Shown piece by piece: positions 4,700 to 18,451 of a DNA stretch of 34,215 bases. The position numbers and the translations under genes are program-made. The notes beneath the pieces are model-generated. The model worked only from the letters and a program-made list of their open reading frames with translations. It made no database searches and was not told the origin of the DNA. Where the stretch lies: contig JAKAKG010000163.1 in the NCBI GenBank assembly GCA_021813555.1, positions 1-34,215 of the forward strand, in the 5' to 3' direction. Origin of the DNA: Acidobacteriota bacterium. Lineage in GTDB: Bacteria; Acidobacteriota; UBA4820; DSQY01. Numbering within the stretch: the first letter of the stretch is position 1; each line of letters begins with the position of its first letter.

Positions 4700-5095
4700 G
4701 TTCTAAATCTCCCCCCTGGCAGGCTGGCGAATCGCTCCCGCGGACCATGTGAGCTCCCTTCGCAGCCCCCGAAGACGGGGGCCGCGAGGCAGGCTCGCAA
4801 GGGTGAACTATAGTGCCCTGAGACCCGCAAGGGAAGGGCTTTTGTCCCGCCGTCCTCACCTACGGCAAAGCACGCAATTTGCTACAGTGGGCCCCGCTGC
4901 CCCGGCACCAAAGGCCCGGAGCGCGTCCCGAAGGCGCGCCCGCCGTGCATAGGCATATGCCTCCCGTGGCATATGCCCCAAAGAGAACGACTGTTCGCGG
5001 CGGACTCGCACGGACTCGTCTTAAGACCTATTGTAATTAAAGTCGGCCTCGATCTCGGCAGGAACCACGAGGCACCACTCAGGGGAGGAAGAGGA
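4700..5095. other. Divergent intergenic region between the cobA-type and Tmc-like genes
   Basis: I see no convincing gene here. The stretch should hold promoters for both directions. A 7-bp GC hairpin (GCCCCCG/CGGGGGC with an AAGA loop) at about 4765-4782 sits in the likely 5' leader of the cobA-type gene. TATAGT around 4810 on the minus strand is a possible -10 box without a good -35. Two CATATG palindromes lie at 4951-4977. I looked for a cobalamin riboswitch and found no recognisable B12 box. Confidence 0.6.
4951..4977. promoter_or_regulatory. Two CATATG palindromes upstream of the Tmc-like operon
   Basis: AGGCATATGCCT (4951-4962, a perfect 12-bp palindrome) and GGCATATGCC (4968-4977, a perfect 10-bp palindrome) have centres 16 bp apart, about 120-145 bp before the first Tmc-like gene. 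The same core occurs on the -10 boxes of the UPF0251 and NifX-like promoters in this window. No TTGACA-like -35 is visible at the matching distance here, so the position relative to the start of transcription is unknown. It is probably an operator. The binder is inferred, not shown. Confidence 0.55.
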
Positions 5096-13033: not shown

Positions 13034-13228
13034 TCAAGCTTTCTTGCCCTTCTCCTCCTGCTTCTTCAGGTAGAGCAGGTGGTGCTCCGAACCTTCGCGA
13101 ACCATGACCTTGCCGCATTTCGGACAACGCTCGTCCTTGCAAGGCTTGCCCGGCTGGTGCCCCTTGACGGCACCGCAGCTCACGCATACGCAGTTGCCCT
13201 GCGATCCCATTCCACCTTGGTGTTGCAT
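13034..13228 (-). CDS. Small zinc-ribbon-like protein
   Basis: This 64-residue protein has six cysteines in two groups (Cys13, Cys15, Cys18 and Cys30, Cys35, Cys38), ending CPKCGKVMVREGSEHH and a charged lysine-rich tail. The spacing fits a zinc ribbon or small metal site. Similar small proteins accompany MTH1175/NifX and CGGC genes in sulfate reducers and methanogens. GAGGGG precedes the ATG. The role is unknown; metal or cofactor handling is inferred from the neighbours. Confidence 0.75.
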   Translation of the reverse strand: MQHQGGMGSQGNCVCVSCGAVKGHQPGKPCKDERCPKCGKVMVREGSEHHLLYLKKQEEKGKKA

Positions 13229-15960: not shown

Positions 15961-16260
15961 TCAGGGCGCCTTGGGTTCGCGCGTGGCCTCGTGGTTCTGC
16001 GCGGTGCCGGCCAAGCGGTGCTCCAGGGCTTCGACCTTGCGGATCAGCGCTTCCACTCGGGAGCCGAGGGTGGATGTCTGCGGACCTTCCTGAGGCGCCA
16101 GGCTAGCCTGACTCGCGCCCCAGCACCGTCCGCGGCCGCCGCCCCGCGAGATTCCACTGGCCCCCATGCCTTGGATCTCCGGGCCATGGATCGCCTGCCG
16201 CACGCGCTCCCCCCGGCCCGTGCCTCGCCGTCCCCGGTTTTGCTCGCTTCTTCCGTTCAT
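15961..16260 (-). CDS. DUF5320-like small Gly/Arg-rich protein
   Basis: This 99-residue protein has a low-complexity Gly/Arg-rich front (RRGTGRGERVRQ, ISRGGGRGRCWG) and a predicted coiled coil at the end (LGSRVEALIRKVEALEHRLA). It fits the DUF5320 family usually found beside MTH1175/NifX-like and UPF0251 genes. AGGAGGT precedes the ATG at 16260 and overlaps the end of the UPF0251 gene, suggesting coupled translation. The function is unknown. Confidence 0.65.
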   Translation of the reverse strand: MNGRSEQNRGRRGTGRGERVRQAIHGPEIQGMGASGISRGGGRGRCWGASQASLAPQEGPQTSTLGSRVEALIRKVEALEHRLAGTAQNHEATREPKAP

Positions 16261-16270
16261 GGTCCACCTC

Positions 16271-16657
16271 CTATGACGGTGCATCGTGATTCAAATCGTC
16301 GCACCGGCAGGCCCGGCCGCGGCGCCTGGGGCCACCGTGGATGGGGCACGAGTCATCGTGCCGCTTCTGCATCTCGACGGGGCCCTCGCCCACCAGCAGG
16401 GCCTTACCTTCCACCAACGCCTCGGCGACCTTGGCCCGCGCCCGAAGCAAAATGCGCCCGAAGGTCACCCGCGAGATACCCATGCGCTCAGCCGCTCCTT
16501 CGTGGTAGAGCCCTTCCCGGTCCGCCAGCCTCAGCGCTTCGAACTCGTCGAGCTGCAGGGTCAAGACTTCCAGCTCGGTCATGGGAATGCCCAGCGGCTT
16601 GAGCCCGCGGACTTTGGGCGCGGCGTTGACGAACCGGATTTGCGTGGGTCTCGGCAT
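16271..16657 (-). CDS. UPF0251 (DUF134) helix-turn-helix protein, probable regulator
   Basis: This 128-residue protein has the UPF0251 pattern: an N-terminal PRPTQIRFVNAAPKVRGLKP, the conserved ELEVLTLQLDEFEALRLAD, and a helix-turn-helix YHEGAAERMGISRVTFGRIL. A Cys-containing tail follows (CPIHGG, ACRCDD) that could bind a metal. The family resembles sigma-region-4 type DNA-binding proteins and sits in MTH1175 gene clusters. Its own promoter carries a CATATG site, shared with the NifX-like promoter, so autoregulation is a reasonable guess. GGAG lies upstream of the ATG at 16657. Confidence 0.85.
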   Translation of the reverse strand: MPRPTQIRFVNAAPKVRGLKPLGIPMTELEVLTLQLDEFEALRLADREGLYHEGAAERMGISRVTFGRILLRARAKVAEALVEGKALLVGEGPVEMQKRHDDSCPIHGGPRRRGRACRCDDLNHDAPS

Positions 16658-16714
16658 GGACGCTTCTCCTTCGCCATCCGAGCATCTTCAGGGAAATCCG
16701 ATGGCGCTCTAGAG

Positions 16715-16743
16715 AACATATGCCCATTACCTGCGCTTGTCAA
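16715..16743 (-). promoter_or_regulatory. Sigma-70-type promoter of the UPF0251 gene with a CATATG operator
   Basis: On the minus strand TTGACA (16743-16738) and TATGTT (16720-16715) are separated by exactly 17 bp, about 58 bp before the start codon. The bases TAATGGGCATATGTT span the end of the spacer and the -10. The NifX-like promoter has TAATGAGCATATGCT at the same place, so 13 of 15 bases are shared. Confidence 0.7.
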
Positions 16744-16805
16744 GGAGCGGAATGTTGTGCGCGCCGGGGTTTTCGCGGCTGGTTTTCGCCAAGATCCGGA
16801 CGGAT

Positions 16806-17435
16806 TCAGATCCAGCAGATCCAGACCTTGGACCGCCCTTCGGGGACTGGGAGGTTTTCCACGAGGCCGAAGTAGCGGCTCAGGAGGTCCTGTTCGTGGC
16901 GCAAGATGGAAAAGGCCCGTCCCGCGCCCATGGAGGCGAGCCGAACGTAGAAGAGCATCCTTACGAGCGGATTGAGAGGCACGTCGTGTTCCATCATGAG
17001 GAAAGCTCCCGCGGGGTTGAGTACCCTGCGAACCTCGCGCAGCGCCTCGTCTTGGGCTTTGCCCGCGAGTTCGTAAAACGCGTGTGAACAGGTGACCGCC
17101 TCGAAGGTACCGTCGCCAAAAGGCAGATGCTCAGCCTCGGCTTCTATCAAATAGAGGTTGGGGACGTCCCTCGTTTTGGCCCGGGCCACCTTCAACATGC
17201 CCATGGAAACATCTACGCCGGCCACGCGCCCCTGAGGGCCAACTCTTCCTTGCAGGGACGGAAGCAAGGTGGCCGTGCCGGTGCAAAGATCTAGCACCGA
17301 GCCACCCGCCGTCACGGGCACGTGGTCCGCGAGAAATTTCCTGGCCGCACCCTGCTTGTCGCGGGAGTGGAGGGCGACGAAGCCGTCGTAGCGCTTCGAA
17401 AACCAGTCGTAGTAAGCCCGTCTCAATCGTCCCAT
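16806..17435 (-). CDS. UbiE-like SAM methyltransferase
   Basis: This 209-residue class I methyltransferase has motif I as VLDLCTGTATLLPSL, the acidic VAGVDVSMGML, HLPFGDGTFEAVTCSHAFYEL and the LREVRRVLNPAGAFLMMEHD loop. It resembles ubiquinone/menaquinone or small-molecule methyltransferases. The substrate is not predictable from context. There are 12 bp between it and the upstream CGGC gene stop, and no strong Shine-Dalgarno, so it may depend on coupling. It belongs to the transcript that begins at the NifX-like gene; the UPF0251 promoter lies after its stop. Confidence 0.82.
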   Translation of the reverse strand: MGRLRRAYYDWFSKRYDGFVALHSRDKQGAARKFLADHVPVTAGGSVLDLCTGTATLLPSLQGRVGPQGRVAGVDVSMGMLKVARAKTRDVPNLYLIEAEAEHLPFGDGTFEAVTCSHAFYELAGKAQDEALREVRRVLNPAGAFLMMEHDVPLNPLVRMLFYVRLASMGAGRAFSILRHEQDLLSRYFGLVENLPVPEGRSKVWICWI

Positions 17436-17447
17436 GTCGGGGCAAAC

Positions 17448-17801
17448 TCAGTAGGCGTGGGTGCCCAGCACGACCTCGACGCCGAACTTCTTGGTGAGGA
17501 TCGCCTTCGTGGCCTCGAAGTCGATGGGGCACGCCGCGGTCTCCATGGCGAGCTTCATGCAGGTACCAAAGTAGAGTGTGTCAATGGAGGTTTCTAGGGC
17601 CTTGGCCGTTTCCATGAGCTGCTTGACCCTCGGGACGACGAGGCCTGGGCAGTCTCCGCAGTGCGTCATAGCCACGATCTGAACGCCGTCCATCTTGGCA
17701 AACTCGCCGTCCCTTTTATCCACCGCCTTGAAACACTTGGCGCAGGCCACGCAGGACACGTCCTTGATCCGCTTGCAGTAGAGAATCGCGATCTTCGCCA
17801 T
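17448..17801 (-). CDS. CGGC family protein (CGDC variant)
   Basis: This is a 117-residue homologue of the CGGC protein at 12546-12989: MAKIAILYCKRIKDVSCVAC with Cys9, Cys17, Cys20 and Cys23, then MTHCGDCPGL (Cys48, Cys51) and the end VVLGTHAY. The central motif is CGDC instead of CGGC. It is probably metal-binding, with unknown function. GGAGG precedes the ATG. Its pairing with a NifX/MTH1175 gene is typical of the family. Confidence 0.82.
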   Translation of the reverse strand: MAKIAILYCKRIKDVSCVACAKCFKAVDKRDGEFAKMDGVQIVAMTHCGDCPGLVVPRVKQLMETAKALETSIDTLYFGTCMKLAMETAACPIDFEATKAILTKKFGVEVVLGTHAY

Positions 17802-17926
17802 GGTCCGTTCCTCCGTGAAAAGGCGCTACACCCGCCGTCGATCTCCTCAGATCCCGGTGTCGGCCCCGCTGCAGCACGCGGCTGAGACACTCCCGCCGGG
17901 CCCAGTGCGGGCTTCTTTGCATGCCG

Positions 17927-18310
17927 CTAGGCGTGCTCGTGGCCGTGGTCGCCGCAATGGTGCAAGTGGCCGCCGCTGCACACCTCGCCCGTGGTCACCA
18001 AGGTGCCGGCTAGGAAGGCCTTAACAAGGGTCTCGGGCTCCCCTCCCGCCACGCCGGACACCACCTTGATGCCGAACTGCTCGAACATCTGCACCGCCCT
18101 GGGGCCCATGCCGCCCGCCAGGATCACGCTCGCGCCTTGGTCGCGGAGCCACATGGGAAAAGCGCCCTTCTCGTGGGGCGGCGCCTGGACGATGGATTTG
18201 GAAACCACGGCCTTCTTGATCTCGTCCACCTCGAACAAGCCGAAAGCCTCCGCTCCGCCGAAGTGCTCCGAGAACCTGCCATCAACCATGGGTAGGGCTA
18301 CTTTCATCAT
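17927..18310 (-). CDS. NifX/MTH1175-like dinitrogenase iron-molybdenum cofactor family protein
   Basis: This 127-residue protein starts KVALPMVDGRFSEHFGGAEA and continues LRDQGASVILAGGMGPRAVQ, the two landmark segments of the MTH1175/NifX fold, which binds Fe-S or Fe-Mo-S clusters. The C-terminus is rich in His and Cys (CSGGHLHHCGDHGHEHA), a likely extra metal site. No nif structural genes are present, so a role in metal-cluster handling rather than nitrogen fixation is more likely. Two ATGs lie side by side (18310, 18307) after AGGAGG, and either may start. It is the first gene of the minus-strand cluster. Confidence 0.85.
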   Translation of the reverse strand: MMKVALPMVDGRFSEHFGGAEAFGLFEVDEIKKAVVSKSIVQAPPHEKGAFPMWLRDQGASVILAGGMGPRAVQMFEQFGIKVVSGVAGGEPETLVKAFLAGTLVTTGEVCSGGHLHHCGDHGHEHA

Positions 18311-18421
18311 GTGATCCTCCTGAAAACGCGGACATCGCCGCTGGTTTCTTATCGTTCCTGGCGCATGGGCTCGCCCCTTCGGCTCCGTGCGCCTCAAGGC
18401 CCCACTTGCCCTAACAGTTAC

Positions 18422-18451
18422 GAGCATATGCTCATTATTCGGCGCCGTCAA
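18422..18451 (-). promoter_or_regulatory. Sigma-70-type promoter of the NifX-like gene with a CATATG palindrome
   Basis: On the minus strand TTGACG (18451-18446) and TATGCT (18428-18423) have a 17-bp spacer, about 115 bp before the NifX-like start. The perfect 12-bp palindrome GAGCATATGCTC (18422-18433) overlaps the -10, so a protein bound there would block RNA polymerase or be displaced by it. Confidence 0.72.

Follow-up and report, generated by a model that had tools for sequence, protein, structure and literature searches.

The window, i.e. the whole stretch of 34,215 nucleotides analyzed here, corresponds to one whole contig of a 3.3-Mb genome. Its minus strand carries a gene coding for a protein of the DUF134/UPF0251 family, present in a single copy in this genome, and a gene coding for a NifX-like protein, each preceded by a promoter of its own (Table 1). 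The former is a clear member of PF02001 (COG1342), a family without assigned function for which our search of open-access papers did not return any description of a function, an operator or a regulon. A COG1342 domain has also been annotated in gp47 of the haloarchaeal virus PH1 (PMC3622292). The DUF134 protein of the window displays a helix-turn-helix (HTH) with the helix ISRVTFGRI and a C-terminal CPIH..CRC tail, and Pfam did not detect in its 128 residues any C-terminal effector-binding domain of the SorC/DeoR type. Weaker matches were obtained below the cut-offs of PF08281 (21.9 bits for a cut-off of 25.7) and TIGR02937 (21.1 for 42.9). Concerning the NifX-like protein, its top NCBIfam match is the C-terminal domain of MrpORP, with a score under the cut-off of that model. 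The gene of a CGGC-domain protein probably belongs to the same operon, of which the gene of a UbiE-like methyltransferase would probably be the last one, as we infer from strand and spacing. Finally, a small Gly/Arg-rich ORF, for which a Pfam search gave no match, is from its position only a candidate for co-transcription with the DUF134 gene.

Table 1. Genes, promoter elements and predicted operators of the DUF134 and NifX-like region.
Feature	Position	Strand	Remarks
Small Gly/Arg-rich ORF	15961..16284	-	Overlaps the DUF134 stop; position only
DUF134/UPF0251 gene (putative regulator)	16271..16657	-	128 aa; PF02001, 81.3 bits (cut-off 27), residues 3-93
DUF134-promoter operator TAATGGGCATATGTTCTCTA	16710..16729	-	Predicted; centre 62 bp upstream of the start codon
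-10 TATGTT, DUF134 promoter	16715..16720	-	Within the operator
-35 TTGACA, DUF134 promoter	16738..16743	-	17-bp spacer to the -10
UbiE-like methyltransferase	16806..17435	-	PF01209/PF13649; starts 12 bp past the CGGC gene
CGGC-domain protein	17448..17801	-	PF08821, 78.4 bits; 125 bp downstream of the NifX-like gene, same strand
NifX-like gene (Nitro_FeMo-Co domain)	17927..18310	-	PF02579, 65.4 bits (cut-off 26.3); predicted second target
NifX-like-promoter operator TAATGAGCATATGCTCGTAA	18418..18437	-	Predicted; palindrome nearly perfect
-10 TATGCT, NifX-like promoter	18423..18428	-	Within the operator
-35 TTGACG, NifX-like promoter	18446..18451	-	17-bp spacer to the -10

Both promoters are of the sigma70 type, and TAATG(G/A)GCATATG(T/C)T covers the -10 in each of them. 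The initial annotation had reported that they share this box together with TTGAC(A/G) and a spacing of 17 bp, which is borne out by exact matches to TAATGRGCATATGYT at 16715-16729 and 18423-18437, both on the minus strand. When up to two mismatches were allowed, the box pattern was found three times in the window for 0.04 expected from shuffles, two of these matches being one palindrome read both ways. A looser version of the pattern has only two exact matches in the 3.3-Mb genome, and they are the sites of the DUF134 and NifX-like promoters. The 15-bp shared box actually forms the interior of a larger palindrome of 20 bp, TTATGNNCATATGNNCATAA, matched at 14 of 16 positions by the NifX-like copy (TTACGAGCATATGCTCATTA) and at 12 of 16 by the DUF134 copy, whose outer arm is degenerate and weak. 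We also scanned the window with a matrix trained on other genera only, the window's genus being left out. The sites at 18418-18437 and 16710-16729 reached scores of 32.7 and 23.6, respectively, for 2.5 at the next-best place of the window and a top score of 13.5 over 100 shuffles. Both operators are unchanged between the genomes G000 and G001, a comparison of little power since the two genomes are nearly identical.

Two GGCATATGCC palindromes, 16 bp apart (4952-4961 and 4968-4977), are observed elsewhere in the window, between a siroheme-synthase-like gene on the minus strand and a divergent operon for a membrane redox complex on the plus strand. They are also found in G001, a genome too close to be informative. 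We considered this pair as a possible third target and rejected it, as it is devoid of the TTATG/CATAA arms (8-9 matches of 16) and is not among the top matrix scores. Since the DUF134 arms are absent, it is perhaps a tandem site for another regulator.

The comparison was extended to 70 DUF134 genes found in 58 genomes within this phylum and to 80 genes from named records covering many bacterial phyla. For the 145 bacterial genes with enough upstream sequence, the 250 bp upstream contained a site with at least 12 of 16 matches in 103 cases and with at least 14 of 16 in 73 cases, for 1.9 and 0.05 expected, respectively, from dinucleotide shuffles; in control windows taken elsewhere in the same loci, at least 12 matches were reached in 29 of 3200. 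The palindrome precedes DUF134 genes in phyla ranging from Acidobacteriota to Spirochaetota, Planctomycetota, Nitrospirota and Chloroflexota. On this comparative basis, the box can be identified as an operator associated with DUF134 genes, and the scan of the genome and its relatives that the initial annotation had suggested found the motif to be conserved upstream of them. About 30% of the DUF134 genes, notably in family f23, do not have any site within 250 bp upstream; some of them may lie inside operons, and in two genomes of f23 the site precedes the NifX-like gene instead. Moreover, DUF134 genes with an altered core of the TTATGAACAAATGTTCTTTA type, in which CATATG itself drifts, were observed in G125, G211 and G365 (L131, L139 and L161).

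The position of the -10 relative to the operator varies among these genes. It starts in the right arm (CATAAT) in 31 genes, in the core as in the window (TATGYT) in 19, 8 bp upstream of the operator in 12 and 2 bp upstream in five, the promoter spacers being ordinary (16-18 bp). The existence of at least four registers across genomes implies that the promoter consensus does not account for the operator. Every register observed lies under RNA polymerase, so that repression is the simplest reading. One would also wonder whether DUF134 could bind the site as an activator, or as a promoter-remodelling switch like MerR, given that MerR-type activators also sit over the -10 or the spacer. We consider this unlikely, as ordinary spacers, together with an operator whose register varies from within the spacer to downstream of the -10, fit better with steric blocking than with a single, fixed geometry of activation.

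In order to examine the link between the operator and DUF134, we compared 396 genomes from the phylum. With at most one mismatch, the palindrome is present in 22 of the 58 genomes that possess DUF134 and in 5 of the 338 that do not (p 4e-16), while a reversed control pattern is found in 0 of 58 and 4 of 338, respectively. In the 58 genomes with DUF134, all 29 sites with at most one mismatch are located just before DUF134 (26) or NifX-like (3) genes, which indicates that the gene pair of the window is the general target set. With two mismatches, seven sites precede DUF134 genes, six precede NifX-like genes and 19 are found in other places, most of which are likely due to chance because the reversed control gave 11 sites in all. 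These comparisons tie the operator to DUF134 and to a set of two target genes. Furthermore, a NifX-like gene lies within 2 kb of 48 of the 70 DUF134 genes, on the same strand in 45 cases. The gene immediately downstream of DUF134 encodes a Nitro_FeMo-Co domain in 39 of 111 cases; DUF5320 (8), methyltransferases (6), ArsP_2 heavy-metal exporters (4) and Mrp/NUBPL (3) are also encountered at this place. At L142:6065-6171 (G231:C34:123064-123170), the DUF134 and NifX-like genes diverge from a common intergenic region, in which each of them has a perfect operator nearby. DUF134 and NifX-like (Nitro_FeMo-Co) sequences are fused into a single protein in L118 (669 onward), L167, L192, L199, L206, L217 and L219; these fusions include Treponema and Mailhella records, and the domain search covered one of them.

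The recognition helix of DUF134 co-varies with the bases of the operator. Base 5 is a G in 148 of 172 half-sites associated with an SRxTxxR helix and a T in 29 of 30 associated with SRQTFGN, whereas base 6 is a T in all nine sites of proteins with an SRGT helix (SRGTVQR-type) and in none of the 92 others. Proteins with SRPT[FL]SR show a preference for TGAACATATGTTCA. When paralogues coexist in one genome (G010, G011, G012 and G023), each operator fits the helix of its own protein, which removes the genome background as a cause of co-variation. From this we predict a residue-to-base code in which R would read G and N would read T:A (TTATGAGCATATGCTCATAA versus TTATTAGCATATGCTAATAA). However, the tree indicates about one origin each for the N helix and the SRGT helix, so the co-variation p-values overstate the independent support and the value of co-variation as an independent proof is weakened. 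The choice of P versus Q/A, compared with base 7, involves 11 and 12 changes on the best tree, and well-supported pairs essentially never oppose each other, but they number only four.

A direct sequence search did not reveal any solved homologue of DUF134, but a profile search reached the DNA-bound DeoR from Bacillus subtilis (PDB ID 7bhy) with an E-value of 4.6e-7. We also used the AlphaFold model of DUF134 (mean pLDDT of 84, above 90 for residues 11-90) in a fold search. The nearest HTH folds were those of sigma region 4 (SigR and SigE among them) and DeoR, with E-values that are weak, as expected for a domain of 45 residues. DUF134 indeed shares its HTH fold with sigma-70 region 4 and ECF sigma factors; unlike them, it scores below the family cut-off, does not contain region 2, and its site is a palindrome and not a -35 element.

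A closer parallel can be drawn with DeoR, a member of the SorC/DeoR family with a homeodomain-like HTH and the helix ISRPTVSRL (PDB IDs 7bhy and 8r7y; PMC11229326). In DeoR, the helix SR34PTVSR39 faces the half-operator ATTGAACAAAATTTCAAT, and R39 contacts G4 of ATTGAAC (PMC11229326). According to our own alignment of DUF134 residues with those of the published structure, R39 corresponds to the co-varying R/N of DUF134 and G4 to the co-varying G/T, while the inner AA of DeoR aligns with the preference of SRPT[FL]SR proteins and its 6-bp gap with CATATG. The proposed DUF134 model matches DeoR in its half-site, TTGAA(C), its 6-bp gap, its R39-G4 contact, its promoter-overlapping operator and its role as a repressor. 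On the other hand, DeoR possesses a large effector-binding domain and binds as a tetramer to a 39-bp operator in two parts, whereas DUF134 lacks such a domain and its operator is mostly a single 20-bp palindrome.

One could assume that the operator belongs to an unlinked regulator controlling both genes, DUF134 being merely one of its targets, and the 30% or so of DUF134 genes without a nearby site would agree with this. Such a regulator appears even less likely than activation, since the operator bases follow the recognition helix of DUF134, even between paralogues of the same genome, since the site is nearly absent from genomes without DUF134, and since DeoR, the best-matching solved HTH, reads the aligned base with the aligned residue. 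As for a chance or promoter-consensus resemblance between two AT-rich -10 regions in a GC-rich genome, some likeness is to be expected in boxes that overlap -10 hexamers, but the excess of matches in the window, the gap in matrix scores between the two operators and the next place, and the conservation across phyla in differing promoter registers make it hardly conceivable.

Altogether, these data lead us to propose that the shared box is very probably the operator of the adjacent DUF134 protein, which would be a small dimeric HTH autorepressor also controlling the NifX-like gene. We infer direct binding, dimerisation and repression rather than activation from the comparisons described above. 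A DUF134 dimer would bind TTATGNNCATATGNNCATAA, with one TTATGNN half read by each of its two recognition helices (SRxTFxR). As the palindrome lies on the -10, or elsewhere in the -35 to +1 zone, the bound protein would block RNA polymerase and thereby repress its own gene and the NifX-like gene, and in the window probably also the CGGC and methyltransferase genes located behind the latter.

The orp operons of Desulfovibrio vulgaris (MrpORP, orange protein) also comprise proteins with a NifX-like (Di-Nase) domain in a regulated unit, as in the window. In MrpORP, this domain is known to bind Fe-S clusters (PMC6345978). Control of the orp operons depends on sigma54, the activator DVU2106 and IHF (PMC3897727). 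Unlike these operons, the window displays sigma70 promoters with a palindrome over the -10. A possible lead in D. vulgaris is DVU2107, which may be a DUF134 protein.

The nature of the signal was addressed through the C-terminal tail. The initial annotation had envisaged, as the simplest model, a metal- or redox-responsive autoregulator with an HTH and a Cys-containing tail. While the shared DUF134 operator and autoregulation are supported by conservation, co-occurrence, helix co-variation and the gene pair, the Cys tail is not a constant of the family. Among 146 tails, 55 are zinc-ribbon-like, 14 are of the CPxH..CxC type found in the window, 11 are of the RCC type and 32 do not contain any cysteine. 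In view of this diversity, we rejected the Cys tail as a universal sensor. A 64-residue zinc-ribbon protein encoded elsewhere in the window (13034-13228, minus strand) shares 58% identity with the tail at the C-terminus of a DUF134 protein from another genome, G386, so that the two are fused elsewhere.

Because DUF134 is coupled to NifX-like and other iron-sulphur proteins, a metal-cluster signal is plausible. The likeliest candidate would be a metal or an Fe-S cluster, which the tail would detect itself or the NifX-like protein would relay. A signal of cluster supply is attractive owing to the Fe-S binding of the NifX-like domain of MrpORP. A tentative hypothesis, to which we give less weight than to its contrary, would be that DUF134 and the NifX-like protein form a widespread two-protein loop in which the NifX-like protein, carrying a metal cluster or not, communicates this state to the repressor DUF134 (through fusion of the two proteins in some lineages), cluster supply setting the expression of both genes. 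We did not find in the open-access literature any description of such a repressor system coupled to a cluster carrier.

This analysis assigns to DUF134/UPF0251, a family widespread in bacteria and archaea, a predicted role together with a precise operator, its targets and a proposed code relating residues to bases. It would also offer a way into the regulation of NifX-like and other Fe-S or metal-cluster proteins of anaerobes, the function of which is poorly known.
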